The notes under the pieces are model-generated. The model was given only the letters and a program-made list of their open reading frames with translations. It was not told the origin of the DNA and made no database searches. This document shows, piece after piece, positions 11,199 to 33,608 of a stretch of 45,670 nucleotides of DNA. The translations under genes were made by a program, and so were the position numbers. This stretch comes from Nostoc sp. B(2019) (lineage in GTDB: Bacteria; Cyanobacteriota; Cyanobacteriia; Cyanobacteriales; Nostocaceae): the NCBI RefSeq assembly GCF_010091925.1, contig NZ_WVID01000015.1:193805-239474 (forward strand), in the 5' to 3' direction. Numbering within the stretch: position 1 is the stretch's first letter; each line of letters opens with the position of its first letter.

Positions 11199-11674
11199 TC
11201 ATGAGTCAAAGGTCAAGGGGAGCCACTGTGGTCTTCTCCCAAGGGGAGCCACTGCGGTCTTGGGGTCTCCCCAAGGGGAGCAAGTGGCGTGAGACGCAAT
11301 CATGCGATGGGGTCTCCTCAAGTGGAGCAAGTGGCGTGAGACGCCCACCGTAGGATGCCCAAAGGGCTGTAGGGCGATAGCGCAGCGTAAAGCCTTCTCT
11401 ACGAGAGGCTGCGCCAACGGCATAGCTTCGCTTAGAGCGAGTCCGCGAGCGAACTGCCGTTAGCGATAGCGTACCCCTACGGGGAAGCAAGCTACAAAGC
11501 AGCGTCTCGTAGAGAGGAACGAGCGTCCGTAGGAGCGTCAAGGGCTTCCCAACTTGTACCCCTACGCTTAAGCCAAGCTATAAAGCAGCGTCTCCTTTAA
11601 AAGAGGCGACTGGCGTTCAATAGTCAAGGTCAAAAATATGTAGGATTTTAGACTTTGGACTCTGGACTTTGGAC
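11199..11674. repeat. Intergenic element A: 400-bp mosaic of nested repeats and hairpins
   Basis: The element spans about 11217-11619. It starts GGGGAGCCACTG and ends GACTGGCGTTCA, flanked on both sides by GTCAAGG-type heptamers. Inside are a 19-nt direct repeat (11217-11235 and 11243-11261) and a 36-nt direct repeat (11262-11297 and 11309-11344). There is also a 21-nt direct repeat (11488-11508 and 11574-11594, one difference) and hairpins at 11417-11460 (ACGGCA/TGCCGT with TTCGCT/AGCGAA inside) and 11474-11484 (CCCC/GGGG). Minus-strand frames here have Arg/Ser/Leu-rich composition and come from the repeat itself. Confidence 0.8.
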
Positions 11675-12019
11675 TCACCGCTTGCCATTTAACACGCGAA
11701 AGTTACGGGCTTGCTGTTCTAACCTTGTGGCAAGGCGATCGCAAACCCGGTTGCATAAATCAAAAATCATTTGATCTTCCACCCGGTAGTAGGCGCAAGT
11801 TCCTTCACTACGACGGCTAAGAATTCCTGCTTGCCACATTACCTTCAGGTGCTTCGACACATTTGCCTGAGAAGTCTGTGTTGCCTCTACCAACTCTTGC
11901 ACGCATTTTTCTTCATCCCGCAGCAAGTGTAGCAGCCGTAGACGCATCGGCTCACTTAACATGCTGAAGTATTCAGCTACTTGTTGCACCACTTCTGGTA
12001 CAGGCAACGCTTGTTTCAT
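11675..12019 (-). CDS. ArsR/SmtB family winged-helix transcriptional regulator
   Basis: A 114-aa repressor-type protein. It has the dimerisation/winged-helix layout: EYFSMLSEPMRLRLLHLL (helix 2), CVQELVEATQTSQANVSKHL (recognition helix about 45-60), then GILSRRSEGTCAYYRV (wing). Cysteines are C39, C75, C89 and C93. The classic ArsR CVC(D)L triad is not complete because only C39 stands in that position. Metal, persulfide or redox sensing are all possible; the ligand cannot be assigned. The stop codon lies within a GGACTTTGGACTC repeat. accB and efp lie upstream on the same strand, 57 bases away, but a shared transcript is not shown. Confidence 0.88.
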   Translation of the reverse strand: MKQALPVPEVVQQVAEYFSMLSEPMRLRLLHLLRDEEKCVQELVEATQTSQANVSKHLKVMWQAGILSRRSEGTCAYYRVEDQMIFDLCNRVCDRLATRLEQQARNFRVLNGKR

Positions 12020-12076
12020 CAGGATTAACCCGCAAGGATTGAAAGTATATGACTCATTTCATATATAGATTAATAC

Positions 12077-12628
12077 TTAATCAGGGTTAATTCGCATTAA
12101 AGGCTGACCATATTCTACCGGTTCACCATTTTGAACGAGAATTTCCATTACCTGTCCTGAGACTTCAGCTTCGATTTCATTCATCAGCTTCATGGCTTCA
12201 ATTATACAGACTGTTTGACCGCTACGGATGCGATCGCCAACTTCTACAAATGGCGCTTCCCCAGGTGCAGCAGCACGATAAAACGTTCCCACCATTGGAG
12301 AAGGTACTTCTACTAATCTTTGGTCAATTGCTGAGGGAGCTACTGACAACTGTAGTTGCGTTGCAGTGGCGGCATTGTCAAAAACGCGATTTGTTCCCAC
12401 CTCCGGTACTGGAGTTGATGCTGCTTGGGGTGCGGGTGAAACCGATGTCAATCCCGAACTAACCACACCACCACCAGATGCTTGACCTACCGACAACATC
12501 TGAGTACTAACGCTCACAGCTTTACGTACCGTTAGTTCAAAATCATTGCTTTTAAGCGTTACTTCTGCAATATCTGTTTGTGCGATAGTTGCTAGGAGTT
12601 GGCGGATTTCATTAAAGTCCAATGGCAC
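12077..12628 (-). CDS. accB: Biotin carboxyl carrier protein of acetyl-CoA carboxylase
   Basis: Carries CO2 on biotin between AccC and the carboxyltransferase for fatty acid synthesis. The 183-aa protein has an N-terminal helix (LDFNEIRQLLATIAQT), a Ser/Ala/Pro-rich linker (about 45-95) and the biotinyl domain (about 108-183). The biotin site is the lysine in EAMKLMNEIEAE. The thumb-containing form, VPSPMVGTFYRAAAPGEAPF, matches bacterial and plastid AccB. It follows efp on the minus strand with a 105-bp gap, an order commonly seen in cyanobacteria. Confidence 0.95.
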   Translation of the reverse strand: MPLDFNEIRQLLATIAQTDIAEVTLKSNDFELTVRKAVSVSTQMLSVGQASGGGVVSSGLTSVSPAPQAASTPVPEVGTNRVFDNAATATQLQLSVAPSAIDQRLVEVPSPMVGTFYRAAAPGEAPFVEVGDRIRSGQTVCIIEAMKLMNEIEAEVSGQVMEILVQNGEPVEYGQPLMRINPD

Positions 12629-12733
12629 AGTTTTTCTTACCTCGACCTATCAGTAAATTAGAATCTTAAGTGTGGCAGGGATTTAATCCTTTGTAGGGAT
12701 TGAAATCGGAAGACACCTCAGTAGATAACAAAG

Positions 12734-13291
12734 TTATTCTCTACCTTGGTATTTATCGTCACGAGTATCAATGCGGATGCGTTCACCCTGGGAAATAAAC
12801 AAGGGAACCATTACACTTGCCCCAGTTTCTAGAATTGCTGGTTTTGTGCCGCCTGTAGCAGTATCACCTTTGACACCTGGGTCTGTTTGCACAACTTCTA
12901 AAACCACGGAGTTGGGCAGTTCTACTTCTAGCACTTGCTCACCCCAACGTACAACGTTAACTTCCATACCTTCTTTAAGGTACTTGACGCGATCGCCAAT
13001 TTGCGCTGCACTCAATCTACCCTCTTCATAAGTTTCCATATCCATAAAGACGAACTCATCGCCCTCTTTATAGGTATGCTGCATGGTGCTTTTTTCTAGA
13101 GTGGCTTGGGGTACTGTTTCCCCAGCCCGGAATGTTTTTTCTACCACGTTCCCATTCTGAGCATTTCTCAGTTTTGTCCGCACAAAGGCAGAACCTTTAC
13201 CGGGCTTAACGTGGAGGAATTCTATCACCCGCCATACAGACCCATCTAATACAATTGAAACACCGGGTCGAAAGTCGTTACTGGAGATCAT
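12734..13291 (-). CDS. efp: Translation elongation factor P
   Basis: Relieves ribosome stalling at polyproline stretches. The 185-aa protein begins [17 protein letters not shown]. The frame extends 16 codons upstream, but that part is not conserved in the family, so I place the start at 13291. The KOW-like domain I has [17 protein letters not shown] with the tip lysine in PGKGS; the OB domains include [17 protein letters not shown] and a C-terminal [17 protein letters not shown]. No dedicated modification gene (epmA/epmB, earP) is visible nearby. It lies upstream of accB on the same strand. Confidence 0.96.
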
Positions 13292-13624
13292 GAAGCTTTC
13301 AATTTTTGGAAGACAATCGGCATTTATTGTACCCTTCAAGCGGAGTAATTAGTCAGTTGACATTTGTCATTTGTCATTGGTCAAGGGTCAAGAGGAGCCA
13401 GTGCGTTGGGGAGATACTGCGTTGCGCGGGTTAAGAGCGTTGAAGCAAGTGTCGTCGGCGGAGCCGACTTGTTCGCTCTTAGCGTTCCCGCTTTCTTAGC
13501 AACTGGCGTTCAAAAGTCAGTATTTATTCCCCTTGTGCTTCCCTGCTCCCTCAGCACGTAACGTGGGAAGATTATTGATGGGTTACGTCCAGTTAACAAT
13601 TTGATGCTGCATTTGAGCCATGCC
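13292..13624. repeat. Intergenic element B (119 bp) inserted in heptamer-repeat DNA
   Basis: The element runs 13394-13512, from GGAGCCAGTGCGTTG to GCAACTGGCGTTCA. GCCAGT and ACTGGC form terminal inverted repeats. Inside are nested stems: GCGGG/CCCGC (13426-13430, 13487-13491), AAGAGCG/CGCTCTT (13433-13439, 13474-13480) and GTCGGC/GCCGAC (13454-13459, 13463-13468). The left flank carries TTTGTCA/TTGGTCA/AGGGTCA heptamers. It sits between the divergent starts of efp and the cyclophilin gene. Confidence 0.8.
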
Positions 13625-14731
13625 ATGTTTAACTTTTTAAAATCCTGGCTGAAGAACAGCCTCATGACAATACTGCTGGTAGCAATATTTTTAGGCATAA
13701 CTACATCTGGGTGGACTCCTTCCAGTAACGCCGCTCTGCCAGCTGGAAATGCAATTACCGACGGCAAAGCTTTGTTGCGGTACGCACTTCCGATAGATAA
13801 TAAACCTGTGCGGCAACTGCAAGCCAGCTTAGAAGATATATCTGCCCAGCTGCGGGCGAATCGGCGGTGGGGTGCTATCTCCAAAGACCTCAGCCAAGCA
13901 TCGCGGATTCTCGATAAACCCTCCCAAATCTTAACAAGCGTTCCCGAAGAACGCCAACCCCAAGCCGAAGCTTGGATTGCAGAATTAAAATCTGGCGTGG
14001 GTAAATTGCAAGAATTGGCGAACGTCAAAGATAAAGAACACGTTCTACAAGAAAGAGCCAAACTACTAAATATCGTTACTCAGCTAGAAGAATCGATGGT
14101 GAAGGGATTCCCCTTTGAAGTACCTACCCAGTACAGTAACCTACCTCAACTTAAAGGTCGTGCCACCGTAGAATTCAAAACCAACAAAGGCAACCTGACT
14201 CTTGTAGTAGACGGTTACAGCGCCCCTGTCACTGCTGGGAATTTTGTAGATTTGGTACAACGCGGTTTTTATAACGGCTTAGAATTTACCCGTTCTGAAG
14301 AATCTTACGTGCTACAAACTGGAGATCCACCAGGAAAGGAGGCGGGTTTCATTGACCCAAAAACAAACAAATATCGCGCCATCCCTTTAGAGATTTTAGT
14401 TGAAGGCGACAAGCAGCCTACCTATGGCATTACTCTAGAAGAAGCTGGACGTTACATTGATATGCCAGTTTTGCCTTTTTCTGCCTTTGGTGCATTGGCT
14501 ATGGCTCGTCCCGAAAGTGAAGTGAATGGTGGTTCTTCACAATTTTTCTTCTTCCTGTTTGAGCCAGAACTCACTCCCGCAGGACGCAATTTATTGGATG
14601 GTCGCTATGCTATTTTTGGCTATCTCACCGAAGGTAAAGAAGTTTTGGATAAACTCAAGGCGGGTGACAAAATTGAATCAGCAACAGTTGTGCAAGGTAT
14701 AGAAAATTTGGTTGAGCCGCAAGCAGCGTAA
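13625..14731 (+). CDS. Peptidyl-prolyl cis-trans isomerase, cyclophilin type, exported (TLP40-like)
   Basis: Catalyses proline isomerisation in exported proteins. From the ATG at 13625 it is 368 aa. It has a basic N-terminus and one hydrophobic segment (LMTILLVAIFLGITTSGW) with a likely cleavage near SNAALPA, a helical region (about 50-170) and a C-terminal cyclophilin domain (about 175-365). The domain shows TNKGNLTLVVDGYSAP, NFVDLVQRGFYNGLEF and GSSQFFFFLFEPELTPAGRN. This layout resembles the thylakoid lumen cyclophilin TLP40. In-frame starts at 13601 (TTG) and 13604 (ATG) would lengthen the N-terminus by seven or eight residues. Confidence 0.9.
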   Translation: MFNFLKSWLKNSLMTILLVAIFLGITTSGWTPSSNAALPAGNAITDGKALLRYALPIDNKPVRQLQASLEDISAQLRANRRWGAISKDLSQASRILDKPSQILTSVPEERQPQAEAWIAELKSGVGKLQELANVKDKEHVLQERAKLLNIVTQLEESMVKGFPFEVPTQYSNLPQLKGRATVEFKTNKGNLTLVVDGYSAPVTAGNFVDLVQRGFYNGLEFTRSEESYVLQTGDPPGKEAGFIDPKTNKYRAIPLEILVEGDKQPTYGITLEEAGRYIDMPVLPFSAFGALAMARPESEVNGGSSQFFFFLFEPELTPAGRNLLDGRYAIFGYLTEGKEVLDKLKAGDKIESATVVQGIENLVEPQAA

Positions 14732-15147
14732 TCAATTGCAGAATAAACTTGAGTCTGTGTTAGCTATGCGATCGCTCAGCTACCAGAGCGTTGTATAATC
14801 TCCAAATTAGGGTAGGCATCTTGCCTGCCCTCAAAATTTCAGGGATCAGCGCTATTAACTAAGATTGCCGGCAGTAAAAATCTGATCAACAGCGTTCACG
14901 AAGTGTACCGTAGGTATCGCTAATTCTGGAAAAGTCCTCGATACAGTTTGCTAGTTACTTGTAAAAACTGTCTCTTCGTACAGCACCTCTTCCAGTAATA
15001 AAACTGAAATCTTCGCTTCTAGTGGGTCTACAATTCAATATTCAGGAACTTCTAACGCCGCATATTCAGATCGCTTATAACGATTATTTGATAACCGTAA
15101 AGCAAATCATCAGTTTTCTTATAACTTTGCAACACGGAAAACCGATT
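14732..15147. other. Intergenic region before thiL with repeat fragments
   Basis: About 416 bases with no gene seen. A 9-bp hairpin at 14810-14830 (GGGTAGGCA/TGCCTGCCC, one G-T pair) may end cyclophilin transcription but lacks a good T-run. At 14892-14920 there is a degraded copy of a GCGTTC..AG..GTATCGC repeat of a type frequent in Nostoc genomes. The upstream extension of the thiL frame (15022-15147) is probably not translated. Confidence 0.5.
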
Positions 15148-16182
15148 GTGAATAGTGAATTATCTTCCCTACAAATACAAGATATTGGTGAACAAGGACT
15201 TTTAGAAAGATTACAGCGATTCTGTCCCCCAGAAATAATTGGGGATGATGCAGCGGTGCTAATGACAGAACCAGAACAATCTTTAGTAGTGACAACGGAT
15301 GTCCTGGTTGACGGCGTACATTTTAGTAACGTCACTACTTCCCCAGAAGATGCTGGTTGGCGAGCAGCAGCAGCCAATTTATCAGATTTAGCAGCAATGG
15401 GTGCTTCACCTTTAGGAATCACTGTCGGACTGGGACTCCCTAGTGAAATGAAAGTGAGTTGGGTTGAGCGGTTGTATCAGGGAATGACACAATGCCTGCA
15501 AAAATACAATACTCCAATTGTCGGGGGTGATATCGTGCGATCGCCTGTTACCACTCTGGCAATTACTGCTTTCGGTCAAGTTCGCCCTAGTCAAATTATC
15601 CGCCGTTCTGCTGCTCAAGTGGGGGATGCGATCGTCGTTACAGGCGTCCACGGAGCCTCCCGTGCTGGTTTAGAATTGCTCTTACATCCTCAATTAGAAC
15701 AAAACCTCAGCAACACAGAAAAGACGGCTTTAATCAAAGCACACCAACGCCCTCAACCACGATTAGATGTCTTACCGATCCTCCAAAAAATCTTAGCATC
15801 CTACTCTCCCACTCCTCCTCTACTCTCCATCGCTGGTATGGATAGCAGCGACGGTTTAGCAGATGCAGTTATGCAAATCTGCCGCGCCAGTAGTGTCGGT
15901 GCTATCCTAGAGCGCAACCAAATTTCCTTACCAACAGCTTTTGATCACTGGCTGACAAAAGAGCAAGCACTGGAATACGCTCTCTATGGTGGTGAAGACT
16001 TTGAATTAGTGCTTTGCTTGCCACAAGAACCAGCCCATAACTTAGTACAACAACTAGGTCAAAGTGCAGCTATTGTGGGCAGGATTACATCGGAATCAAC
16101 AGTAATATTGCACGACAAGAAAGAAAAATTCCCCGACCAAGTTCTGAGTCTTAGCCAGGGATTTCAACATTTTAGTCATTAG
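15148..16182 (+). CDS. thiL: Thiamine-phosphate kinase
   Basis: Phosphorylates thiamine monophosphate to the active cofactor thiamine diphosphate. From the GTG at 15148 the protein is 344 aa, the usual ThiL length, and opens VNSELSSLQIQDIGEQGLL. The AIRS/PurM-like fold shows GDDAAVL, TTDVLVDGVHF, AAANLSDLAAMGA, GGDIVRSP and a late GMDSSDGLADA and YGGEDFELVL. An in-frame start at 15022 would add 42 residues that do not look conserved. The last codons and the TAG stop lie inside the left arm of a 17-bp convergent hairpin shared with gap2. Confidence 0.93.
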   Translation: MNSELSSLQIQDIGEQGLLERLQRFCPPEIIGDDAAVLMTEPEQSLVVTTDVLVDGVHFSNVTTSPEDAGWRAAAANLSDLAAMGASPLGITVGLGLPSEMKVSWVERLYQGMTQCLQKYNTPIVGGDIVRSPVTTLAITAFGQVRPSQIIRRSAAQVGDAIVVTGVHGASRAGLELLLHPQLEQNLSNTEKTALIKAHQRPQPRLDVLPILQKILASYSPTPPLLSIAGMDSSDGLADAVMQICRASSVGAILERNQISLPTAFDHWLTKEQALEYALYGGEDFELVLCLPQEPAHNLVQQLGQSAAIVGRITSESTVILHDKKEKFPDQVLSLSQGFQHFSH

Positions 16183-16212
16183 TCCTTTGTCCTTCGACAA
16201 AGGACTAATGAC
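16175..16212. terminator. Perfect 17-bp bidirectional hairpin between thiL and gap2
   Basis: GTCATTAGTCCTTTGTC (16175-16191) is exactly complementary to 16196-16212, with a CTTC loop. The arms are built from the TCATTAG/TCCTTTG heptamer vocabulary of the intergenic repeats. The thiL stop codon (16180-16182) falls within the left arm and the gap2 stop is four bases beyond the right arm. Confidence 0.85.
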
Positions 16213-16215
16213 AAA

Positions 16216-17229
16216 CTATTGCCACTTCTGGGCTACTAATTCTGCCAAATCCAGAACTCGCTGGCTGTAACCCCACTCGTTGTCATACCACGCCATAACT
16301 TTTACTAGGTCATTGCCCAAGACCAAAGTCAAGGCAGCATCCACAATCGAAGAAGCATCACTACCTTGATAATCGGACGATACTAGTTGTAGTTCGCTGT
16401 AGTCTAAAATGCCTTTGAGTGGGCCTTCAGCAGCATCTTTGAGAGCTTGGTTAACTTCTTCCGTAATAGTACGCTTCTCAACCTGAACCACGAAATCTAC
16501 CATTGAAACGTTCGGGGTAGGTACACGCAGGGCAACGCCATTCAGCTTGCCCTTAAGGTCTGGAATTACCAGCGCCACTGCTTTTGCCGCACCAGTCGAG
16601 GTGGGTACAATGTTTATGGCTGCTGCTCTGGCCCGTCGCAAATCCCGGTGAGAAGCGTCTAGCAAGCGCTGGTCGCCGGTATAGCTGTGGGTGGTGGTCA
16701 TTGTACCTTTAATGATGCCGAATTTATCGTTCAACACCTTGGCGATGGGAGCCAAGCAATTAGTGGTACAGCTGGCATTACTGATGATGTGATGTTTGTT
16801 GTGGTCATAGTCGTGATGATTCACACCAACCACAAACGTGCCATCCTCATTTTTACCAGGGGCGGTGATCAGAACCTTTTTGGCTCCAGCATTCACATGC
16901 TTCAGCGCTCCTTCTTTGCTGGTAAATACTCCCGTCGCTTCGATGATTAGGTCAATTTCCCACTCTTTCCAGGGCAAGTTTTCTGGGTTGCGATCAGACA
17001 CGCACTTAATGGTCTTACCATTAACGATGATAGAGTTATCATCGGCAGTAATGTCAGCACCCTTTATCTTCCCTAGCATCGAGTCATATTTCAGCAGGTG
17101 AGCGTTGGTTCTAGGGTCTGAGGTGTCGTTAATAGCGACAAGGTCAATTTGGCTATTTTCTCTGCCCACCCAGCAGCGCGCAAAGTTACGTCCGATACGC
17201 CCGAAACCGTTGATTGCAACTCTGATCAC
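16216..17229 (-). CDS. gap2: Glyceraldehyde-3-phosphate dehydrogenase, Gap2 type
   Basis: The Calvin-cycle/gluconeogenic GAPDH of cyanobacteria, able to use NADPH. From the GTG at 17229 it is 337 aa and begins [20 protein letters not shown]. The catalytic cysteine is in [12 protein letters not shown], and [29 protein letters not shown] and [12 protein letters not shown] are all present. [20 protein letters not shown] is typical of Gap2 and not the glycolytic Gap1. A longer frame to 17280 adds 17 residues that are not conserved. It converges on thiL; nadD lies upstream on the same strand. Confidence 0.95.
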
Positions 17230-17345
17230 AGTGTCTTGCCCTCTGTATTTATGCTTATAAGTTGATATCGTTGACCCCAATCATATCGCAAAGGGGGGGA
17301 GCACTCATAACCACAAAGTGTCGGATCAATAAAAAAACACATAAT

Positions 17346-17972
17346 TTATTCAGATTTGCTTGAGTAAAGGTTGTTGTTAGTGATGTATGCTCTGACCGAT
17401 TCCGGGACTAAATAGCGAATTGACTGGCGTTCGTAGCAAAGTTTGCGAATTAGACTTGACGAAACTCCTACTAAAGGTATATTCAAGAATTGCCAGTGAA
17501 TGGTAAATGACTGCTCACTCAGTTGTTGTTCCACTTGCTTGCAGATTAACTCGCTTTGAGCTATAGTCTCACCACCTAGCAGTCGGGGTGCGATTAACCA
17601 ATCACACATTTGTGCTAGTTCGTGTCCACGGTACCAACGAGGTAAGGTTTGGAAAGCATCCAAACCCAAAATCCAGTACCAGTGAGTATTTTGGTAAAAA
17701 GCAGATAAGTCGATTAGGGTATTGATGGCAAAAGAAACCCCAGAGTGATTTACCTCCACCAGTGAGACAGTAAACGCAGGGTTATCTTTTGTAGCTCTTT
17801 GCAGCATTTCCACGCGATGCTCAAACAAAGCTGCTTCTTTATGAGGAGGATTTAGCGATGGCACCCAAATTACCTTTTTTAGTGGTACTTGATGCAAAGC
17901 TGTTTCGGCTATGAGCAGGTGTCCCCAATGAATTGGATCAAATGTGCCACCAAAAATTGCTAGTTGCTGCAT
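17346..17972 (-). CDS. nadD: Nicotinate-nucleotide adenylyltransferase
   Basis: Adenylates nicotinate mononucleotide in NAD synthesis. The 208-aa form starts MQQLAIFGGTFDPIHWGHLL, which holds the nucleotidyltransferase GGTFDPIHxGH signature. WVPSLNPPHK, WILGLDAFQTLPRWYRGHEL and the C-terminal VSSSLIRKLCYE (SxTxxR-like) with VRAYI complete the family pattern. The frame extends to 18020, but the extension overlaps an imperfect direct repeat and I consider it untranslated. It is upstream of gap2, which uses the same nicotinamide cofactors, with 116 bases between. Confidence 0.9.
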   Translation of the reverse strand: MQQLAIFGGTFDPIHWGHLLIAETALHQVPLKKVIWVPSLNPPHKEAALFEHRVEMLQRATKDNPAFTVSLVEVNHSGVSFAINTLIDLSAFYQNTHWYWILGLDAFQTLPRWYRGHELAQMCDWLIAPRLLGGETIAQSELICKQVEQQLSEQSFTIHWQFLNIPLVGVSSSLIRKLCYERQSIRYLVPESVRAYITNNNLYSSKSE

Positions 17973-18376
17973 CCAGTCACGCCTGGGTTTTACGCAATTG
18001 AAAAATAGTTTCATTACCAATGTACTATTGAAGTCAATTCGCGCCTAGGCTTGATGCAATTTAAAATCAGTTTCGCCAACATTGTGCGATCGCAGCCAAT
18101 TCCAGTAAGGTAACTAAAAATATGTATTTGACATTACAAGAATTTCTTTCCCGATGCAGCAGAAATTTTCAGAATAATCTTAACAACAGTTCAGAAATAG
18201 CAAAAACCTCCAACCAAGGTAAAATCATTCTGAATAAACAAAGCCAGAGCAGAAAAGTCAACTTGGCATCAAATATAAACATGATGTACGAACAGTTACG
18301 GTAAAAAATCAAATTCCTGTTATGATACGCGTGTCATTTGTGATTATGGTGTGGTGTGGTGTAAGAGGAGCAATAA
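17973..18376. repeat. Imperfect 43-nt direct repeat next to nadD, in a 404-base gap
   Basis: Segments 17981-18023 and 18043-18085 align without gaps at about 72 percent by eye (12 mismatches in 43). Both start GCCT.GG and contain .GCAATT.AAAA..AGTTTC. A small frame of uncertain reality (18122-18304) occupies the rest of this gap. Confidence 0.5.
18122..18304 (+). CDS. Possible small protein, no family recognised
   Basis: A 60-aa frame starting MYLTLQEFLSRCSRNFQNNL, rich in Asn, Ser, Gln and Lys, with no membrane helix or motif. A TAAGGT stretch about ten bases before the ATG could serve as ribosome site. It stands between nadD and murC in the murC direction. Composition is that of a random AT-rich frame as much as of a small disordered protein. 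I give it less than even odds. Confidence 0.35.
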   Translation: MYLTLQEFLSRCSRNFQNNLNNSSEIAKTSNQGKIILNKQSQSRKVNLASNINMMYEQLR

Positions 18377-19840: not shown

Positions 19841-19954
19841 GTTACGAGGTCTGATTTCTAAGCAAAGCACCCGTCTACCAACGATTCCATTGGTTTATGC
19901 TATTGCCGTATTATTACGGTAAAAAATGTAAAAATTTTACCTATTAAAGTAAAG

Positions 19955-20941: not shown

Positions 20942-21334
20942 AGTGCTTGTTGAAACTTGCAATCAAACGGATGGGGACTGAAGAAGCAGGGGAGCCAGCG
21001 CTGTGCAAACAGAAGTCGGAGTGATGGCTATGCTTTCCTTTAAGAGTGAACAGAACAATCAGAGTTCCCCGGCTTATTCGCTCTAAGAGTTCCCGTTTTT
21101 TTAGCAAGTGGTGTGCAATTAACTGCGTAGTTAGATAGTAAAGAAGATGAGGGTAGAGGGAAAAGACTTACTACAACTTCCCCTCTGCTTTCCTTCTTCT
21201 TTTCCTAATGTCCAATGCCCAATGCCCCATGCCTTATGCCCAGCATTAATTATTGGTAAAAAAAGAGGCAAATTGCCCACCGCATCTATAATTGAATTTG
21301 ATTTGTTATTCAACGCACACGCGAACAATCAATT
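20942..21334. repeat. Intergenic region with degenerate element C and a heptamer array
   Basis: Element C (about 20991-21117) starts GGGGAGCCAGCG and ends TTAGCAAGTGGTGTGCAA, a diverged version of the element ends seen at 13394 and 21703. Inside, TAAGAGTGAA and TTCGCTCTAAGAG recall the AAGAGCG/CGCTCTT stem of element B. Farther on, 21207-21241 is a five-unit heptamer array (AATGTCC, AATGCCC twice, CATGCCT, TATGCCC). No gene is seen; small frames on both strands here are repeat-derived. Confidence 0.6.
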
Positions 21335-21682: not shown

Positions 21683-21702
21683 TTGTTAGTCATTGGTCAT
21701 TA

Positions 21703-21751
21703 GGAGCCAGTGCGTTGCGGGGGTTCCCCCCGTTATAGCAACTGGCGTTCA
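21703..21751. repeat. Intergenic element D (49 bp), minimal form
   Basis: GGAGCCAGTGCGTTG at the left and GCAACTGGCGTTCA at the right, with GCCAGT/ACTGGC as complementary ends. The interior is only a CGGGGG/CCCCCG hairpin (21718-21732). Both flanks are heptamer-like: GTCATTGGTCATTA before it; GGTCAATA, GGACAAATGACAAATGACTAAGGACAAA-type units to about 21808 after it. It is the shortest member of the family in this window. Confidence 0.85.
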
Positions 21752-21817
21752 TTAGCCCTTGGTCAATAACTATGGACAAATGACAAATGACTAAGGACAA
21801 AGGACAATCAAATATTT

Positions 21818-24089: not shown

Positions 24090-24263
24090 GTGTGAGTATT
24101 GCCATACTACACTAGGGTGAGAAATGGATTGTAGTAGAAAGCGTGTTGTATGTCCTCAGCGTGAGTTGACAAAATGCCCAGTTTATAGCCACAGGTTGAT
24201 TTTACTAACTTTTAAACTCGATACAGTTGTGAATAACTTCGGATGGCATGAGGAACTTTCACG

Positions 24264-24542: not shown

Positions 24543-24560
24543 ACAATTAAAAATTCAAAA

Positions 24561-24607
24561 ACAGTCAATAGTTCAGTCATTTTTTACTGACTATTGACTG
24601 TTTTTTA
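24561..24607. terminator. Strong hairpin terminator
   Basis: ACAGTCAATAGTTCAGT (24561-24577) pairs with ACTGACTATTGACTGT (24586-24601), with one bulged base, followed by TTTTTT. It separates the convergent WGxxGxxG gene and the IctB-like gene and can serve both; the loop strand also holds a T-run. Confidence 0.85.
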
Positions 24608-24624
24608 TTTGATACTGCTACTTC

Positions 24625-26052: not shown

Positions 26053-26230
26053 TTAGCATGTCGCCACAGAACTTGGACTTAATCATAATGCGGGTAGCTA
26101 TAAAAAGGTAATAATGTAGATTGCAAATTGGTAATTTGTGATGGCACTCTTGTTAGTAGCCCTCAGCTATTACCTATAATCTCAAAGCATTGCAGGCATT
26201 ACTAATTGAAGACAGCTATCGGGTTTGTCA

Positions 26231-27790
26231 TCAGACATCACTAATTGCTTCTGAGGGAGCAGCTAGTTGTAATGGCAAAGAAAGGACGTAACGATATCCT
26301 GATTCTGGTGAACCTTGAATCGAAATTTGTCCACCATGCAGTTCTGCTAGCTGACAGCTAAGCAACAGACCTAAACTTTCGCGGGAGAGACTTCCATGTG
26401 GTTTAGTTAAATCTATACCTGAAGTCACAGCAAAGATACTTGAGTGAGCATCACTCAAATCTTTTGATTTCTCTACTGCTATTGGTGAGACATCTGGTTG
26501 ATCCTGAGCTTCTAGATGAGTACTATAAGTTACTGTCTCACCAGAGAGATCCAGTCTCGACAAAGGATTAAACCGAAAATAGGGATCGACCTCAGTCATA
26601 CCGTCTCCCAGCCAGGGATGCGAAACCCAGATAGTAATGTGAAGCGTATCTTCCTTGTAAGAGACATGAATACGAACAATACTACCTGTCGCAGAAAGTT
26701 GAATCACGCTAAAAACTAGGTGATAGAGAATTTGCCGCACCTTGTCTTTATCCAAAGGACAAATGCGATTACGTCCCGGCTCTATAGATAGGCGAATATC
26801 TTGCTCGCGGCGGTTAGCCACTTCTTCTAGAGTATTGATAGCTTGTTGACATAGCATTTCAATATCTACAGGAGCTAGATTCAGCACATCTGAGTTTTGA
26901 TCTAGAGTACCAAGTTCGGTAATTTCGTTTACTAATGAAAGTAAGTACCGACCACTGTGTTGGATAATCTCTACATATTCTCTCTGCTTAGTTGTCAAAG
27001 GCCCGTAAATCTCACGCCCCAAAACACTAGCCATGCCTAGCACAGATGTTAAAGGTGTACGCAACTCCTGAGTTAGCTGTTCCAAAAGTTCTAGTTTCAG
27101 TTGCTTGGTAGAAACAGAGTCTTGGTCTAAAGTGGGTGGGGTTATTCTAAGGTCAGCAGTATGGTCGTCATTATATGACAGTATGGGAGCGCTCTTAGAA
27201 GGGCTTGTTTCTAGTTTTCCTTGCAGCAGTCGGTTGCGCTCAAATTCACTCATGCTCCAACGAGCGATGATTTGTAAAAACTCAATGTCTCGATTTGTAA
27301 AATTGCGCGGCACTAAATCCATCACTGCCAATGCACCCAAACAATTTCCCGAAGCATCAATCAGTGGCGCTCCTAAATAAGCACGAATCCCATAATCTTG
27401 TACCAACTTACTGCTAGCAAGTACTGAATTCGTAAGCTTTTGCGTATCATTAATTACAAATATTTGATAACTCTCTACTACCTGTGTGCAAAAAGATTCC
27501 CGGCGTAAAAGTTGACGGTTTTGTGCCAAATGATTCATTAATCCCAGCCTGGATAAGCCTATCGCCGACTTGAACCAGTGACGTTCTTGATCTACAAATC
27601 CCAAAATGGAAATTGGTGCTTCCAAAAAGTGGGCAGCAGTTTGAGTGGCTTCTTCAAAAACCGGAATCGTTTCTGGTTGCCGCAAACCTAATTCAGACAA
27701 AGCTTTGAGGCGTTGTTGTTCTCTTGTTTCCTGAGAAGTCCAACCATCCTTTAGGGCAAATAATTTGTTTTCAGGCTCTACCATTGCCAC
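26231..27790 (-). CDS. GAF-domain sensor with degenerate histidine kinase core (probable pseudokinase)
   Basis: A 519-aa protein. Residues about 25-190 form a GAF domain (FEEATQTAAHFLEAPISILG, YLGAPLIDASGNCLGALAVMD); residues about 232-300 match a HisKA helix pair, and 340-510 a HATPase-like region. The H-box reads LTQELRTPLTSV, so the phospho-accepting His is replaced by Gln241. The N-box reads VRQILYHLVFSVIQLS with no Asn, and the G1 box (HPWLGDGM) is disrupted; only SLGLLLSCQLAELHGG of G2 survives. It is full length with no stop or frameshift, so it seems maintained as a non-catalytic sensor or scaffold. A partner is unknown. Confidence 0.85.
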   Translation of the reverse strand: MAMVEPENKLFALKDGWTSQETREQQRLKALSELGLRQPETIPVFEEATQTAAHFLEAPISILGFVDQERHWFKSAIGLSRLGLMNHLAQNRQLLRRESFCTQVVESYQIFVINDTQKLTNSVLASSKLVQDYGIRAYLGAPLIDASGNCLGALAVMDLVPRNFTNRDIEFLQIIARWSMSEFERNRLLQGKLETSPSKSAPILSYNDDHTADLRITPPTLDQDSVSTKQLKLELLEQLTQELRTPLTSVLGMASVLGREIYGPLTTKQREYVEIIQHSGRYLLSLVNEITELGTLDQNSDVLNLAPVDIEMLCQQAINTLEEVANRREQDIRLSIEPGRNRICPLDKDKVRQILYHLVFSVIQLSATGSIVRIHVSYKEDTLHITIWVSHPWLGDGMTEVDPYFRFNPLSRLDLSGETVTYSTHLEAQDQPDVSPIAVEKSKDLSDAHSSIFAVTSGIDLTKPHGSLSRESLGLLLSCQLAELHGGQISIQGSPESGYRYVLSLPLQLAAPSEAISDV

Positions 27791-28754
27791 TGCTACCTTG
27801 ATAATTGCTCGATACTGTAATTGATATAACCACTATTTTTGAGTTATCAATTGCTATTTTTAAGCATTCCCTAATTTCGCCTCTAATAAACAACTTTAGG
27901 GCAAAAATTTTTCACCCTCAGCCTTAAGCAGGCGATGCAGTCTCCAATAGTTCCTATCCACTGGTGCTGAATGTTCTACTCAGCACTGGTGTCATCTGTA
28001 TTGCTTGATATTTTGCAAACAGACAGCGTTAGTTTTGGATTCAGTCAGGGTAACATAACGCTAAGGATACAATACAAAAGGGTATCATTCTTATGCATAG
28101 AAGGGAAAATTATTGTCTGTACACTCAACGTAAATTTACTGAAAATAACTATTTTGAGATATTTTTATGTAACCATTTTTACTGAAAACAGCTAACACTG
28201 ATTGTTGGCAATTTTTAGATATTTCATATAACTCTTCATCTGATAGATTAAGCATGTTACAACTTCAAACTGCAAATTATGTAGACTGTTTGGTTTTTCT
28301 CTTATTAAAAAGTTATCGTAGTTACCAACAGTAATTTAAAATTTAGTTAAAGATATACAAATTATTTATTAATAATTTTTCTAGTATTAAAAAACGCACT
28401 ATCAAGATTTATAGTATTTTTTTTATAAAAATCAGATAAAAAATAACCTTTATTTGAATGCTATTAGTTTATAAATAGTTAATTTATAGATAATCACTAT
28501 TCTATATTTTTTAGATATTTTTTAAAGCTAGATTCAGGCAAAAATATTTTAATTGTCTCGTTGACATAAGTTAAATATATTCGGGCATTATATCCTAATT
28601 ATTGCTAAACCACGTTTTACTAGTTTATTATTTTTTTATCAAGGATTTCATAATTTTTAGTAAATATATTTAGTCCGATATTTACGGGTAAGTAAAAATA
28701 GATTAGCTTTGATAAAGCAGAATTTTAATATTTGAATTTTGAGGAAAAATAGTA
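27791..28754. other. 964-base AT-rich gap before the envelope locus
   Basis: Nothing resembling a conserved gene was found. A 74-codon frame at 27971-28195 has no ribosome site, odd composition and no motif. The part from about 28260 is very AT-rich (runs such as ATTATTTATTAATAATTTTT). It may hold the promoter or a long leader of the DegT gene, or be a recombination scar; I see no terminal repeats to support the latter. Confidence 0.5.
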
Positions 28755-29945
28755 ATGAATAAAATGACTATTAGAATTCCTTTTGTAGACCTTAAGTTAC
28801 AACATCAACCGATTCAAACGCAACTACAACAAGCAATTCAGATTGTATTAGAACAGGGAGATTTTATTTTAGGGCAAGCACTATCAGATTTTGAAGCAGC
28901 TTTTGCAGCAACATCTGGGACAGAATATGGAGTTGGTGTTGCATCAGGAACCGATGCGATCGCCCTCGGATTGCAAGCGTGTAATATTGGGGCTGGCGAT
29001 GAGGTGATTTTACCAGCCAACACCTTCATAGCAACTTTGATTGGGGTGCTACGTGCTGGTGCAAAGCCTGTTCTTGTAGATTGCGATCCCCAAACAGCTT
29101 TAATTGACTTAGAGGCAGCAGTAAGGTCAATTACACCACAGACCAAAGCAATTATCCCTGTACATCTCTATGGTCAGATGGTATCACCACGGCAGCTATT
29201 AGACTTTGCCGATACCTATAAACTGCTAATTTTTGAAGATGCAGCACAGGCACATCTAGCACAAAGAGAGGGATTTCACGCTGGTTCAGTAGGAATAGCA
29301 GCAGCTTTTAGTTTTTATCCCAGCAAAAATTTGGGCGCATTTGGGGATGGGGGGATGTTGTTGACGCGAGATTCCGATGTAGCCCAGAAAATGGGGCGTT
29401 TACGGAATTATGGTGCATCACAAAAGTATTTTCATACTGAATCAGGAACGAATAGTCGTTTGGACACCATGCAAGCCGCTGTCTTGCATCATAAACTACC
29501 ATATTTGCCACAGTGGAATAGCGATCGCCTGAGTATTGCCCAGCAGTACGATATGGAACTAGCACCCTTAGCAACTGCTGGCATCATCCCGATACAAAAT
29601 CAAAGTGGTACAGGACACGTTTATCATCTTTATGTCATCAGAGTTGACGATACTTGCCCTACAGAACGCCAGCAACTCCAAGAAAAACTAACAGCAGCAG
29701 GAATTCAGACTGGCATTCATTACCCAATTCCCTGCCATCTCCAGCCGGCATTCAACAGCTTAGGCTATCAGCAAGGAGACTTTCCGCAAGCAGAAAAGCT
29801 GTCAAAGCAAATATTATCGTTACCGATGTATCCTGGTTTGAGTAGTAGCCAGGTCAAAGAAGTTGTAGCAGCGATCGCTGATGTAGTTTCAACAGGTTCT
29901 CATTCAGATCCATCTCCTGCTGTCGTTGGCAGTATAGCAGCATAA
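28755..29945 (+). CDS. DegT/DnrJ/EryC1/StrS family PLP-dependent sugar aminotransferase
   Basis: A 396-aa aminotransferase of the family that converts keto-sugar nucleotides to amino sugars for surface glycans. It opens IRIPFVDLKLQHQPI and shows GVASGTDAIALGLQA, DEVILPANTFIATLIGVLRA, IIPVHLYGQM, FEDAAQAHLA, the PLP lysine in FSFYPSKNLGAFGDGG and LRNYGASQKYFH, then RLDTMQAAVL. GAGGA ten bases before the ATG sets the start. It leads the group of exosortase and Wza/Wzc-like genes, suggesting a modified exopolysaccharide sugar, but the substrate cannot be read off. Confidence 0.92.
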   Translation: MNKMTIRIPFVDLKLQHQPIQTQLQQAIQIVLEQGDFILGQALSDFEAAFAATSGTEYGVGVASGTDAIALGLQACNIGAGDEVILPANTFIATLIGVLRAGAKPVLVDCDPQTALIDLEAAVRSITPQTKAIIPVHLYGQMVSPRQLLDFADTYKLLIFEDAAQAHLAQREGFHAGSVGIAAAFSFYPSKNLGAFGDGGMLLTRDSDVAQKMGRLRNYGASQKYFHTESGTNSRLDTMQAAVLHHKLPYLPQWNSDRLSIAQQYDMELAPLATAGIIPIQNQSGTGHVYHLYVIRVDDTCPTERQQLQEKLTAAGIQTGIHYPIPCHLQPAFNSLGYQQGDFPQAEKLSKQILSLPMYPGLSSSQVKEVVAAIADVVSTGSHSDPSPAVVGSIAA

Positions 29946-30047
29946 ATCGCAGATTGATATTAGCGATCGCTACTTTGGTTGAGCAGGGGTTGACTTCAGG
30001 AAAGCTCTTGTCTTCTATAGGTATGGTTGGATAATAACGCACACTTT

Positions 30048-30068
30048 GCGTAGGCGTAGCCCGCCGTA
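30048..30068. repeat. Fragment of a GCGTAGGCGTAGCCCGCC-type dispersed repeat
   Basis: GC-rich 21-nt island in AT-rich DNA between the DegT and exosortase genes, resembling a palindromic repeat often seen between Nostoc genes (from memory). Confidence 0.4.
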
Positions 30069-30146
30069 TGAAACTTTTCAAGACAGACATCGTATCAGCT
30101 AATAGTTTTTGAGTTGTTAATTTATAATCTTGAATTGCTTAAAATC

Positions 30147-31040
30147 ATGGCATTCCAACAACAGGTTAAAAACAGAAACGCGCCAGCCATTTTCAGCCTA
30201 GCTATCTTAGGCGTTTTGGTGCTGCTTTATGCTCCTGTATTACTACATTGGTTGGATGGTTGGCTGCACAAAAATATCAGTACAGAGCACGAATATTTCA
30301 GCCACGGTATTATTGGTCTACCATTTGCTGCTTACCTGGGGTGGTTGAACCGGAAACAGTGGAGACGATTGCCAGATATTACCCATCCGTTGGGCGCTGT
30401 CTTCTTATTATTAGGGGGAGTTTTTTATCTTAGCGGTGTTACAGAGTGGGTTAACATTTCCTTGCCTGTTATGCTGGCAGGATTGTGTTTGTGGTTTAAG
30501 GGAATACCAGGTTTGCGATCGCAAGGATTCCCCCTGTTGTTAGTATTTCTGGCAACCCCGACAGCAATACCCTACCTCATTGCACCCTATACCCTGCCTC
30601 TGCAAAGCTTCATAGCTGGTACAGCGGGCTTCATACTGAATCAGTTTGGTATGGAAGTAACCGTTGATGAGATAAATTTATACGTAGGAGGAAGAATTGT
30701 AGAAGTTGCCCCCTACTGTGCTGGACTGAAAATGTTGTTTACTACTCTCTATGTCAGCTTGATGCTGCTTTATTGGACGGGTGCTTTGTCTTCACGTCGC
30801 ACAACTATTTGGTTTTTATCCATTGCGATCATCATTAGCATTAGTGCCAATATTGTTCGCAACACTTTACTTACCTACTTTCACGGCACAGGTCAAGAAG
30901 CAGCCTTTCAATGGCTGCATGAGGGTTGGGGTGGAGACTTATACTCTGCTTGTATGCTGCTGTTATTAGTGCCTTTGCTAAATCGGATTAATAGCTATTT
31001 TTCAGCATCTCCAGAAACTCAGCAACAAGAGGAAAGTTAA
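30147..31040 (+). CDS. crtB: Cyanoexosortase B (exosortase/archaeosortase family)
   Basis: A 297-aa membrane protease/transpeptidase thought to process proteins carrying a C-terminal sorting tail (PEP-CTERM type) during export to the outer envelope. About eight membrane helices. The catalytic triad is visible: C191 in VEVAPYCAGLKM, R238 in ANIVRNTLL and H258 in FQWLHEGWGG. The ATG at 30147 is chosen over a TTG 11 codons upstream. The next gene encodes the matching partner protein, which supports the B subtype. The gene symbol follows the exosortase naming and should not be confused with phytoene synthase crtB. Confidence 0.88.
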   Translation: MAFQQQVKNRNAPAIFSLAILGVLVLLYAPVLLHWLDGWLHKNISTEHEYFSHGIIGLPFAAYLGWLNRKQWRRLPDITHPLGAVFLLLGGVFYLSGVTEWVNISLPVMLAGLCLWFKGIPGLRSQGFPLLLVFLATPTAIPYLIAPYTLPLQSFIAGTAGFILNQFGMEVTVDEINLYVGGRIVEVAPYCAGLKMLFTTLYVSLMLLYWTGALSSRRTTIWFLSIAIIISISANIVRNTLLTYFHGTGQEAAFQWLHEGWGGDLYSACMLLLLVPLLNRINSYFSASPETQQQEES

Positions 31041-31187
31041 AAGGAAGTCAGAAGCCAGGGGTCAGAATGTCTTTTGTCCTGACTCCTCTGCCAAAACAAT
31101 TAAGATCAGGGTACATTGTCAATATTACTGAACTCATGGTGTCATTTTATAAAGTAAAATTTTGCCTAAGTATTGCAAATTTTACTG

Positions 31188-31910
31188 ATGATTTCCTTAT
31201 TCAAGTTTTTCAAGGAAAACCAATTAAGTCAGGTAGCAGCACTTTTGTTATTGCTACTACTATTAGCGATGGGAGGGATTCCCGGATATCTGACAGGACG
31301 CTGGCAATGGAAACAGCCGCCACCTGTTGCAAGCCTTAATGAATTAAGACACATACGCAAGACTGGGTTAACTCTTCCTGGTTGGCAAACTATTGAACAA
31401 GCGGAACAACAAATTGGCGAGCGAAAATGGTCATTGCAGGTAATTAAGAAACAAGGGTCTGAATCCCAGGCTATCCTGCTTTTGCTGCCACAAAATGGCC
31501 CTATGGATCAACCAGAGGTGGAGTGGACGGAGCTTAATGGTTGGGGAAGATCACGCTGGAGAAAGTGGGACATAGCTCAATATCGCTCCGCCGAATTTAC
31601 TGTGAACCAGCCTCCAAAGTTAGGAGCTAATACCGAAACAAAAGTAGAAGCTAGGTTTTTTCGTGCCTCTACACCACAGCAAACCTTCGCTGTTTTGCAA
31701 TGGTACGCTGTGCCAGAAGGTGGCAATCCATCACCTTTATACTGGTTCTTGGCAGATCAATGGGCACAGTGGCATAAGAAACGTACCCCTTGGGTGGGCG
31801 TAAGTATTATCATTCCGATGGAGCCTTTGGGGCAGGTAGAAAAATCTTGGTCTTTAGCACAGTCTCTTGGAAAAACAGTGCAAGCTGCATTGATGGCAGA
31901 TGCTTTTTAA
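31188..31910 (+). CDS. Cyanoexosortase B system-associated protein
   Basis: A 240-aa protein that always, in my memory of such loci, sits right after cyanoexosortase B. It has one N-terminal membrane helix (VAALLLLLLLLAMGGIPGYL), then a soluble periplasmic-type domain with LTLPGWQTIEQ, WTELNGWGRSRWRKWDI and AVLQWYAVPEGG NPSPLYWFLADQ. This is comparable to EpsI-like partners of other exosortases. Its role in sorting is not established. ATG at 31188 follows upstream in-frame TTG and CTG codons. A weak GTCAG-type hairpin (31057-31087) separates it from the exosortase gene. Confidence 0.82.
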   Translation: MISLFKFFKENQLSQVAALLLLLLLLAMGGIPGYLTGRWQWKQPPPVASLNELRHIRKTGLTLPGWQTIEQAEQQIGERKWSLQVIKKQGSESQAILLLLPQNGPMDQPEVEWTELNGWGRSRWRKWDIAQYRSAEFTVNQPPKLGANTETKVEARFFRASTPQQTFAVLQWYAVPEGGNPSPLYWFLADQWAQWHKKRTPWVGVSIIIPMEPLGQVEKSWSLAQSLGKTVQAALMADAF

Positions 31911-32059
31911 AGTAAGTCATAGCTGTGCTTGTGCAGATATTAAGTCAATATTCATCCTTTTTCTTGTAAATACTTGCAGAGAAAAGAGACATTGAGGGTA
32001 TTTACAGAGTAAAATAACGACTCGGCGCAACCGATTCTTAGTTCAGCATTACTGCACCG

Positions 32060-33418
32060 ATGTTTATAGCTCCCAATTCTCATATACGTGCGTTCAGCGC
32101 TCTGTGTTTTGTCAGCCTTCAGATAAGCGCTTTTTTAACAACACCCATCCAACTTGTTGTTGCTCAGCCCCTACCATCTCAAGGACAATCGCCAGGGCAA
32201 CCCCCCTCACCTCCCCTAGGTGTTGAAGTTGTACCACCAGGGGTAAATGACGAAGTTTCCCCCCAACTTAGCCGTTATCTTTTAGGGCCAGGAGATGTAA
32301 TTGGCGTTGCACTTCAGCGTCCTCCTGGACCCTACCGTTTAGGAATAGGAGATGCAATTAGCGTTGCGGTTCAGCGCTTCCCGGATTTGAGTTTTCAAGC
32401 TGCAATTAATCCAGAAGGTAACATTGTGGTGCCGCTACTAGGAACCGTGTCCCTACAAGGTTTAACTTTGGAAGAAGCACAAGCAAAAATCCGCTCTGGC
32501 TTAAATCGTTATGTAATTGATCCAATCATAGTTTTATCACTAGTAGGGCAGCGTCCAGACTTTAGTTTTCAAGCCGCAATTAGTCCAGAGGGTAACATTG
32601 TAGTGCCGCAACTAGGAACTGTGTCCTTACAAGGCTTGAGTTTAGAAGAAGCTCAAGAAAAAATTCGCTTAGGCTTGAGTCGCATTTTCATTGATCCGAT
32701 TGTGGTAGTATCCTTGACAGGGACGCGACCAGTGCAAGTTACCATTAGCGGAGAAGTATTTAGACCAGGAATTTATCCTATTAATTCGGGAACACCTCGT
32801 GTTGCTGATGCCCTATTGATAGCTGGTGGTTCAACCTTAACCGCAGACCTGCGGCAAGTGCAAGTACGTCGAAAGTTGATGGATGGTTCTGTGGTTTCAC
32901 AAACTATTGACCTGTATGCAGCCTTGCAAAATGGCGGATCAGTACCTAATCTACGCTTGCAAGATGGGGATGCGGTAACTGTGCCACGTCGTGAAGTCGG
33001 GACTGATGATGGTTACGATCGCAACTTGGTAGCACGTTCATCATTGGCTGTACCGCAGATTAGAGTCCGAGTTTTAAACTATGCTGCGGGAGGAATTGCT
33101 ACACAAGCACTGCCTAATGGTAGTACGTTTGTAGATGCTTTGGGAGGAATAAATCTCGACACAGCTAACCTCCGGGAAATTGCCTTAGTCCGCTTCGATC
33201 CTGAACGAGGCAAAGCTGTCACACAGAAACTTGATGCGAAAAAAGCTCTCGGAGGTGATGCGTCTCAAAACGTGCCGCTTCAAGATAATGATGTTATTGT
33301 TGTTGGTCGTAACCTCATCGCTAAAATCACTAATGCCATCGGTACAATTACTCAACCATTCTTTAATATTCAGAGCTTTATCCGCTTCTTTGAATTCTTT
33401 ACCGGTGGTGGTGATTAG
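32060..33418 (+). CDS. Wza-like polysaccharide export protein with duplicated Poly_export domain
   Basis: A 452-aa outer-membrane-directed protein of the polysaccharide biosynthesis/export family. A signal sequence (about 10-36, ending VVAQP), a Pro-rich linker, then Poly_export (PES) and SLBB domains (VTISGEVFRPGIYPI and later IRVRVLNYAAGGIA). The PES segment is duplicated: residues about 106-163 and 164-221 are near-identical (SFQAAINPEGNIVVP / SFQAAISPEGNIVVP). A third, shorter similarity, GPGDVIGVALQR and GIGDAISVAVQR, precedes them. It likely forms the exit channel working with the Wzc-like protein encoded next. Confidence 0.9.
   Translation: MFIAPNSHIRAFSALCFVSLQISAFLTTPIQLVVAQPLPSQGQSPGQPPSPPLGVEVVPPGVNDEVSPQLSRYLLGPGDVIGVALQRPPGPYRLGIGDAISVAVQRFPDLSFQAAINPEGNIVVPLLGTVSLQGLTLEEAQAKIRSGLNRYVIDPIIVLSLVGQRPDFSFQAAISPEGNIVVPQLGTVSLQGLSLEEAQEKIRLGLSRIFIDPIVVVSLTGTRPVQVTISGEVFRPGIYPINSGTPRVADALLIAGGSTLTADLRQVQVRRKLMDGSVVSQTIDLYAALQNGGSVPNLRLQDGDAVTVPRREVGTDDGYDRNLVARSSLAVPQIRVRVLNYAAGGIATQALPNGSTFVDALGGINLDTANLREIALVRFDPERGKAVTQKLDAKKALGGDASQNVPLQDNDVIVVGRNLIAKITNAIGTITQPFFNIQSFIRFFEFFTGGGD
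32375..32722 (+). repeat. 174-bp in-frame tandem duplication inside the Wza-like gene
   Basis: Bases about 32375-32548 and 32549-32722 align at a constant 174-nt offset. Long blocks are nearly identical at DNA level (for example GGTAACATTGTGGTGCCGC versus GGTAACATTGTAGTGCCGC). The unit equals 58 codons. Confidence 0.85.
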
Positions 33419-33514
33419 TTACTCTAACCTCATTGCTCCTTGTCGCTGGATAAGGGAGATGAAGGAAATGAGGGAGCAGGGGAAGAGAGGGAATAACTAC
33501 TGACCAATGACTTT

Positions 33515-33565
33515 TGAACGCCACTTGCTTCAAGTCGGCAGAGCCGCCCAACGCAGTGGCTCCCC
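33515..33565. repeat. Intergenic element E (51 bp), inverted orientation
   Basis: TGAACGCCACTTGC at the left and GCAGTGGCTCCCC at the right; read on the minus strand it is GGGGAGCCACTGC ... GCAAGTGGCGTTCA. The complementary ends are GCCACT/AGTGGC, and the interior carries a CGGC/GCCG hairpin (33536-33546). Flanks are TGACCAATGACTTT and CTTGACTCTTAACAAATGACTAA, both heptamer-like. It lies between the Wza-like and Wzc-like genes. Confidence 0.85.
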
Positions 33566-33608
33566 TTGACTCTTAACAAATGACTAATAAGTAATATATG
33601 CATCTGCC

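Follow-up and report, generated by a model that had tools for sequence, protein, structure and literature searches.

A 45-bp hairpin element, probably mobile and enlarged by nesting, in Nostoc sp. B(2019) and related cyanobacteria

In the work of Elhai et al. 2008, Nostoc punctiforme and its relatives reportedly carry families of small dispersed repeats (SDRs) of 21-27 nt that lie in heptamer repeats and in copies of themselves; these SDRs reportedly show compensatory changes, and an RNA intermediate is reported as suspected. Elements of the IS200/IS605 family have bulged hairpin ends and insert 3' of a short motif without target duplication, and Rickettsia palindromic elements (RPE) are palindromic repeats able to sit in frame in coding genes. 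To our knowledge, the question of what mobilizes the very small repeats of cyanobacteria is still open. Repetitive extragenic palindromes (REPs) and their doublets (REPINs), associated with REP-associated tyrosine transposases (RAYT, or TnpA-REP), are outlined as short, extragenic, non-autonomous hairpins in PMC3116915, PMC3733652 and PMC6006769. The SDRs are given a size of some 20 bp in PMC2884548, and SDR5 is placed precisely between bases 3 and 4 of HIP1 in PMC4390886; PMC2670836 treats heptamer repeats and, by its listing, offers no description of a 45-nt element. Here we analyze a 45,670-nt stretch of Nostoc sp. B(2019) (contig NZ_WVID01000015.1, positions 193,805 to 239,474, forward strand; the window) and the family of small hairpin elements to which five of its intergenic places (A to E) belong.

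The five places were marked in a first-pass annotation, made from the sequence alone, as one family with shared, co-varying ends and an interior of differing size. Our analysis points to a smaller unit. We favor, at a probability of about 0.74, a 45-bp non-autonomous mobile element that works through its fold, with nesting and with an enzyme supplied in trans. That the 45-nt hairpin is mobile and non-autonomous, that it usually enters without target duplication and that it grows by nesting are well supported, and we infer that the folded single strand is the moving form.

The 45-bp unit and its fold

The mobile unit is 45 bp long and runs GAGNCANTGC...GCNANTGNCGT (GAGNC..GNCGT). It is thus smaller and stricter than the elements first outlined, and the preceding G and the following TTCA or TCA are read here as probable target rather than as part of the unit. 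The unit was defined by structural scans and a covariance model, R1, built from an alignment (A1) of 83 distinct copies. The head motif, GGAGCCASTGCGTTG, is found unchanged at 44 places in the strain's own genome, far above chance, and its reverse at none; the five places themselves are read directly in the sequence, and their assignment to one family stands. Genome-wide, there are 106 own-genome matches to R1 (150 scored out of 2734 candidates), of which 90 are exactly 45 long, although a model built from 45-mers is biased toward that length. The remaining 16 include four matches of 69 (45+24) and one of 90 (45+45). Among the matches listed for a pattern with a free gap, 116 of 144 cyanobacterial matches are 45 long, and the lengths of 33 chance (non-cyanobacterial) matches scatter from 36 to 62.

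Based on RNAfold predictions for 56 distinct copies, most copies have a common shape: 8 outer base pairs interrupted by a single bulged base, then an internal loop, and an inner helix of up to 7 bp capped by a triloop. The search pattern fixes 17 bases, and constancy there, in six of the eight outer pairs and at the G in position -1 is no evidence; pairs 4-42 and 7-39 and all seven inner pairs are free. Among the matches listed, after removal of 4 doubly counted copies, pair 4-42 is Watson-Crick in 112/112 and pair 7-39 in 107/112 distinct 45-bp cyanobacterial copies, compared with 8/33 and 6/33 in the non-cyanobacterial control found with the same pattern. This bears out the earlier observation, made on the window copies, that the end pairs change together.

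The inner helix behaves in the same manner. Standard pairs occupy 93.3% of the 1245 cells of A1 (six of the eight outer pairs being fixed by the pattern) and 86.2% within the inner helix, which is free in the pattern. Two-sided changes are present at 9 of 15 pairs (176 cells), and covariation extends to each of the seven inner pairs. A covariation score of 0.353 was obtained, compared with 0.087 in shuffles (none of 500 equalled it) and 0.052-0.101 with the partner slid along; the simple count of pairs changed on both sides is equalled by 22 of the 500 shuffles. Pair 14-30, where the inner helix begins, is G.U in 60 of the 83 distinct copies and A.C or C.A in only 1, and therefore appears to mark one strand as the one that folds.

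Two further observations concern the 83 copies. At A1 columns 16 and 28, standard pairs are joined by G.A in 22 copies and A.G in 11, a picture that would arise if a purine mismatch persisted while its two sides were exchanged. The numbers of copies with open frames in +1, +2, +3, -1, -2 and -3 are 39, 81, 47, 79, 68 and 79, respectively, with shuffles giving ~52-57.

Nested copies, targets and empty sites

The elements of the window and their parts, in window positions, are as follows.

11220-11337, + strand: first part of A, a host 45-mer in 2 pieces (11220-11235 and 11309-11337)
11246-11290, + strand: inner A, an intact 45-mer (R1, 62.0 bits) nested in a 28-nt module (11236-11245 and 11291-11308)
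11338-11616, strand unassigned: rest of "A", a mosaic of other dispersed repeats
13395-13509, + strand: element B, a host 45-mer in 3 pieces (13395-13410, 13456-13471 and 13497-13509)
13411-13455, + strand: inner B, a 45-mer within the B host 45-mer, after GCGTTGGG (R1, 47.4 bits)
13472-13496, + strand: 25-nt SDR-like module (TTCGCTCTTAGCGTTCCCG...) inside B
20992-21114, + strand: element C, a decayed compound relative with head GAGCCAGCGC and tail GCAAGTGGTGT
21704-21748, + strand: element D, an intact 45-mer with stem GCCAGT/ACTGGC and inner helix GCGGGGG/CCCCCGT (R1, 70.4 bits)
33518-33562, - strand: element E, an intact 45-mer with stem GCCACT/AGTGGC (R1, 68.2 bits)

Four R1 units are found in the window, namely D, E, inner A and inner B. 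C is decayed, its ends pair only in part, and the window scan gave it no R1 match at E<=1. Judging from its sequence, C may hold a remnant of a 24-nt-type module. The window copies are situated between larger open reading frames (ORFs), and A, B, D and E stand in TCANNNG heptamers, with C outside them, as first described. The element contains no transposase and was correctly taken to be non-autonomous. No match was obtained when the window was scanned with Rfam at gathering thresholds.

The larger elements can be taken apart. The three pieces of B, when joined, form a 45-mer that has the family fold and is identical to intact copies at 41/45 positions; B is one 45-mer holding a second 45-mer and a 25-nt module. 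Inner B has 3 non-standard pairs in its inner helix, and its junction with the host matches intact copies at k=0, i.e., with no bases subtracted from the joined flanks. Joining the pieces of the first part of A likewise gives 45 nt with the family fold (43/45 identical to intact copies), and this part is a 45-mer holding a 28-nt module that holds another 45-mer. Since the nests resolve to 45-mers once the inserted units are removed, element size varies largely by whole units (45 + 24/25, 45 + 45, 45 + 28 + 45). The earlier attribution of size to a freely differing interior is replaced by nested insertion of whole units.

The modules recur elsewhere. The 28-nt module in A consists of CTCCCAAGGG and GAGACGCAATCATGCGAT with the 45-mer in the middle, and similar flanks surround a 45-mer at three loci of a same-genus genome (G004: L025, L030, L035). 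The 24-26 nt module that begins TTCGCTCTTAGCGTTCCCG occupies 17 distinct places in the loci examined; at 13 of these TTG precedes it and a family-type tail follows, a share biased by the choice of many loci for carrying the head motif; in at least one place it stands alone. Its places include window positions 13472-13496 and loci L001, L051, L062 and L156, and are mostly at one point of the 45-mer. The mosaic part of A (11338-11616) has many partial matches elsewhere in the genus. It closes with a family-type right end at 11605-11616 (..GACTGGCGT), for which no partner end was found; this right end, finishing at 11616, does not pair with the left end of A (GCCACT).

At most non-tandem targets the unit enters after an (A/T)G(A/G)G-like motif. 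In 100 sites outside TCANNNG heptamers, position -4 is A or T in 85, position -3 is G in 83 and position -2 is A or G in 91. The copies of the collection were chosen with GGAG, so that their G at -1 was demanded by the search pattern; of 18 further sites picked without that pattern, 13 have it. Heptamers had been suggested as the target, but they form only one class: the unit also enters GTAG-type hairpins, other repeats and its own copies, in many cases at one fixed position. The 125 sites include 25 TCANNNG heptamers, 10 sites with the left flank GTAGGTTGGG directly before the insertion, 5 between AAGGG and GGATTT, 5 between TGCTGAG and TGCTGAG, and 5 in the element itself. The left flank GTAGGTTGGG belongs to a GTAG-type hairpin repeat, which has the same insertion point at L154, L156, L212, L224, L252, L259, L286, L297, L299 and L311; the right flank at L286 is that of a 45-mer host. 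Non-tandem empty targets fold with -14.2 kcal/mol (n = 76) compared with -10.1 kcal/mol for 1094 WGRG windows from the same loci, whose GC content was matched approximately (p = 8e-10).

For target duplication, the flanks of 143 distinct insertions were joined minus k bases (k from -6 to 12) and the resulting empty site was sought in all DNA examined, with 103 matched. Some weak empty-site matches are filled sites, and the result is a tally rather than a series of independent orthologous tests. The best match was at k=0 alone for 40 of the 55 non-tandem sites. Of 48 tandem sites, 30 were best at k=0 alone, 3 were tied between 0 and 7, and 8 had other values or ties. Sister genomes supply cases at k=0: a G004 insertion compared with G001 (47/51), element E compared with G001 (47/52), and an own-genome copy (C54) compared with G002 (53/56), the place being judged the same by its flanks and a shorter window preferring k=7. 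Based on these comparisons, we conclude that the unit usually inserts without duplication, with the heptamer arrays probably gaining or losing units on their own.

A 7-bp duplication as the general rule was also considered and was rejected: the targets that made it look convincing (D and other copies in repeats) are tandem arrays, and k=0 wins outside arrays.

Four same-genus genomes (G001 to G004), with matching stretches 87-97% identical, were compared at the five sites of the window. Element D, the stretch with C, and element E are each missing in 4/4, and the flanks of E are cleanly comparable in G001 and G003. Site B has no element in G001 and G004 and a different element at another heptamer in G003. 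At site A, an element that differs but shares the outer ends is found in G003; G002 shows nothing but heptamers, and the sequence is of another kind in G001 and in G004, the G004 version carrying its own 45-mer. Presence thus varies within a single genus at every one of the five sites, and the element-free sites predicted for sister strains exist.

Beyond these genomes, the head motif GGAGCCASTGCGTTG is present in 27 of 60 relatives, with a single match of the reversed pattern in all 60 (G042). Of 99 genomes of the family, 78 match a two-ended pattern in which two stem pairs are free, and none matches its reverse. Matches to R1 were found in 30 of 244 genomes drawn across the phylum (22 of the same family, 8 of the same order), with 25 candidates scored per genome, such that the counts are floors. 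There are 17 plasmid records with a D-like match, all cyanobacterial by name; phage records searched with element E gave no match.

In G016, 19 of the 21 heads are on the forward strand of its many contigs. Strand clustering on the G061 chromosome is not significant (40/43 places typed, 35 after collapsing neighbors, 13 runs, p = 0.08). A type I polyketide synthase gene on plasmid pGLO7428.01 of Gloeocapsa sp. PCC 7428 contains an in-frame 45-bp copy (L322:1323-1367), which adds 15 residues between the ketosynthase and the acyltransferase, inside a stretch that is a gap in the two solved relatives shown. In the window, a direct repeat at 32381-32728 (2 copies of 174 nt, 77% alike) lies inside an ORF at 32060-33418.

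The moving enzyme and competing explanations

In the explanation that we favor, an enzyme supplied in trans would recognize, copy and insert a single folded strand, either RNA or single-stranded DNA. At most non-tandem targets the unit is placed after an (A/T)G(A/G)G-like motif with no target bases duplicated. Because earlier copies and other small repeats are used as targets, nests build up stepwise, growing by 45, ~24-25 and ~28 nt.

Several findings weigh against it. No transposition event, excised form or transcript was seen. Among the non-tandem sites, 6/55 were best at k=1 alone and 9/55 at other or tied values; among the tandem sites, 7/48 were best at k=7 alone. Site D is better explained with a 7-bp duplication (54/56 at k=7 vs. 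42/46 at k=0), for which a slipped heptamer is the likely cause and a real 7-bp duplication a possible one. The empty sites matched are for the most part further copies of the host repeat concerned rather than orthologous sites, and sites within one host repeat are not independent; site B in G002 is not clean, with a truncated element-like piece elsewhere in the gap. On account of these last two points our confidence was slightly reduced, and that in an ordinary inverted-repeat transposon (below) slightly raised. Some copies have spread as passengers of larger repeats (the same flanks at L012, L030 and L035). The hairpin bias of the targets may only reflect that intergenic repeats are hairpins, with GC contents of 0.515 (control) and 0.538. 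The strand mark is one pair; the other six inner pairs have similar numbers of G.U or U.G (10) and A.C or C.A (7). Finally, G015 has 58 heads and 4 two-ended units, and G016 has 21 and 0, so that heads by themselves may come from some other source as well.

A Y1 transposase was suspected because the missing duplication is combined with a bulged hairpin, and the first-pass annotation had likewise pointed to a REP-type enzyme. If the hairpins were REP-like ends, or ends derived from IS200/IS605, a Y1 (HuH) transposase would excise them as a single strand and insert them 3' of a short motif without duplication. This fits most of the non-tandem sites, as well as the bulged base, the short motif in the left flank and the strand mark; cyanobacterial TnpA-REP classes with long or double-foot REPs are also outlined in PMC6006769, and some match to PF01797 is present in 11 of the 12 high-copy genomes tested (of 21 with at least 20 copies). 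The loci and the remaining genomes speak otherwise. Of 37 Y1 matches in five same-genus genomes, 30 loci were fetched, and in none of them, with the end patterns searched, is the gene framed by two element ends. Among the 21 genomes carrying 20 or more pattern copies, 10 lack any match at E<=1e-8 to a RAYT-like gene of G004. One genome with 30 copies (G063; 2 contigs, 99% complete) has no PF01797 match, and another with 51 (G064) has a single match of 25.5 bits in a 68-aa frame. The unit is, moreover, one hairpin rather than a REP doublet. The Y1 proposal thus accounts for the lack of duplication, but the genomic search makes a Y1 or RAYT protein unlikely as the obvious enzyme, and we consider the explanation as a whole unlikely.

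Two Y1 loci (L170 and L181) have a single copy within ~330 bp, which was read as chance. The one PF01797 match in G106 (66 copies) scores 33.8 bits, and its 197-aa frame may represent a RAYT-like gene. For reverse transcriptases (RTs), 17 genomes were tested, some carrying the element and some not; 15 of them have a match to RVT_1. None was detected in G106, where past loss is possible. Neither a Y1 nor an RVT_1 match is common to all many-copy genomes in the sample, and each lack could be a later loss. Both enzyme classes appear somewhat less likely in view of high-copy genomes in which no match to them was found. A bolder version of our explanation would make the folded 45-nt strand the unit of mobility, entering the stems of other hairpins without duplication through an enzyme of neither the Y1 nor any known RT type, possibly one of host repair or RNA processing, with self-insertion growing mosaic intergenic and even coding sequence; we hold this only tentatively and doubt that all of its parts are correct.

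An ordinary miniature inverted-repeat transposable element (MITE), with terminal inverted repeats moved by the DDE transposase of a resident insertion sequence, would account for both ends reading GCCAST inwards, for the multiple copies, for the element-free sites and for the 7-bp difference at D. It would also be expected to leave a constant duplication, whereas most non-tandem sites have none (40/55 best at k=0 alone) and a few orthologous non-tandem empty sites have zero duplication. The inner helix covaries as well as the outer one, which end recognition does not need, and the length is mostly 45; a MITE is therefore very unlikely. Least probable of all are host-serving RNA or DNA structures (terminators or mRNA stabilizers), selected and spread by gene conversion rather than transposition, which would suit the strong fold, its covariation and the position of the window copies between larger ORFs but not the differing presence at each of the five sites within one genus (with no conserved orthologous positions seen at them), the insertion into other repeats and into the element itself at exact points, or the in-frame copy in a polyketide synthase gene.

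For the 45-bp element moving through its fold, the unit, its ends, fold and target motif and the usual lack of duplication are now known in enough detail to be tested directly. Part of the mosaic appearance of intergenic DNA in these genomes would be explained by a few hairpin units nesting step by step.

Relation to known small repeats

The 45-nt unit resembles REPs and REPINs in being a short, extragenic, non-autonomous hairpin, but it is a single hairpin and not a doublet, and no RAYT gene lies between two copies in the loci examined. It has neither the GTAG nor the fixed CGTC tag of REPs and REPINs: the window units begin GGAG, and at the 100 non-heptamer sites CGT is followed by G in 42, C in 30, T in 21 and A in 7. 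A GTAG-type repeat serves it as a target instead. With the ends of IS200/IS605 elements the 45-mer shares the bulge, entry 3' of a short motif and the absence of duplication, site D being either an exception or a slipped array. It differs from them in that it is one hairpin, with no tnpA between two ends in the loci examined and one high-copy genome without a Y1 match. Like RPE, the 45-mer is palindromic and has an in-frame copy in one gene, but its sequence and host are different, and the analysis of in-frame insertion covered that one gene.

The closest likeness is to the SDRs. As these reportedly do, the 45-nt unit occurs in cyanobacteria, is very small, sits in heptamer tracts, nests in itself and carries compensatory changes, and its insertion is precise. 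Its length is the difference, at 45 nt compared with the 21-27 nt reported for SDRs, although the 24-25 nt module inside B does have an SDR-like length. A description of the 45-nt unit was not found in the literature searched, which took in few subscription papers, and the unit may be described in Elhai et al. 2008. Compared with SDRs by their reported description, the 45-nt unit behaves like one and is best filed beside them.

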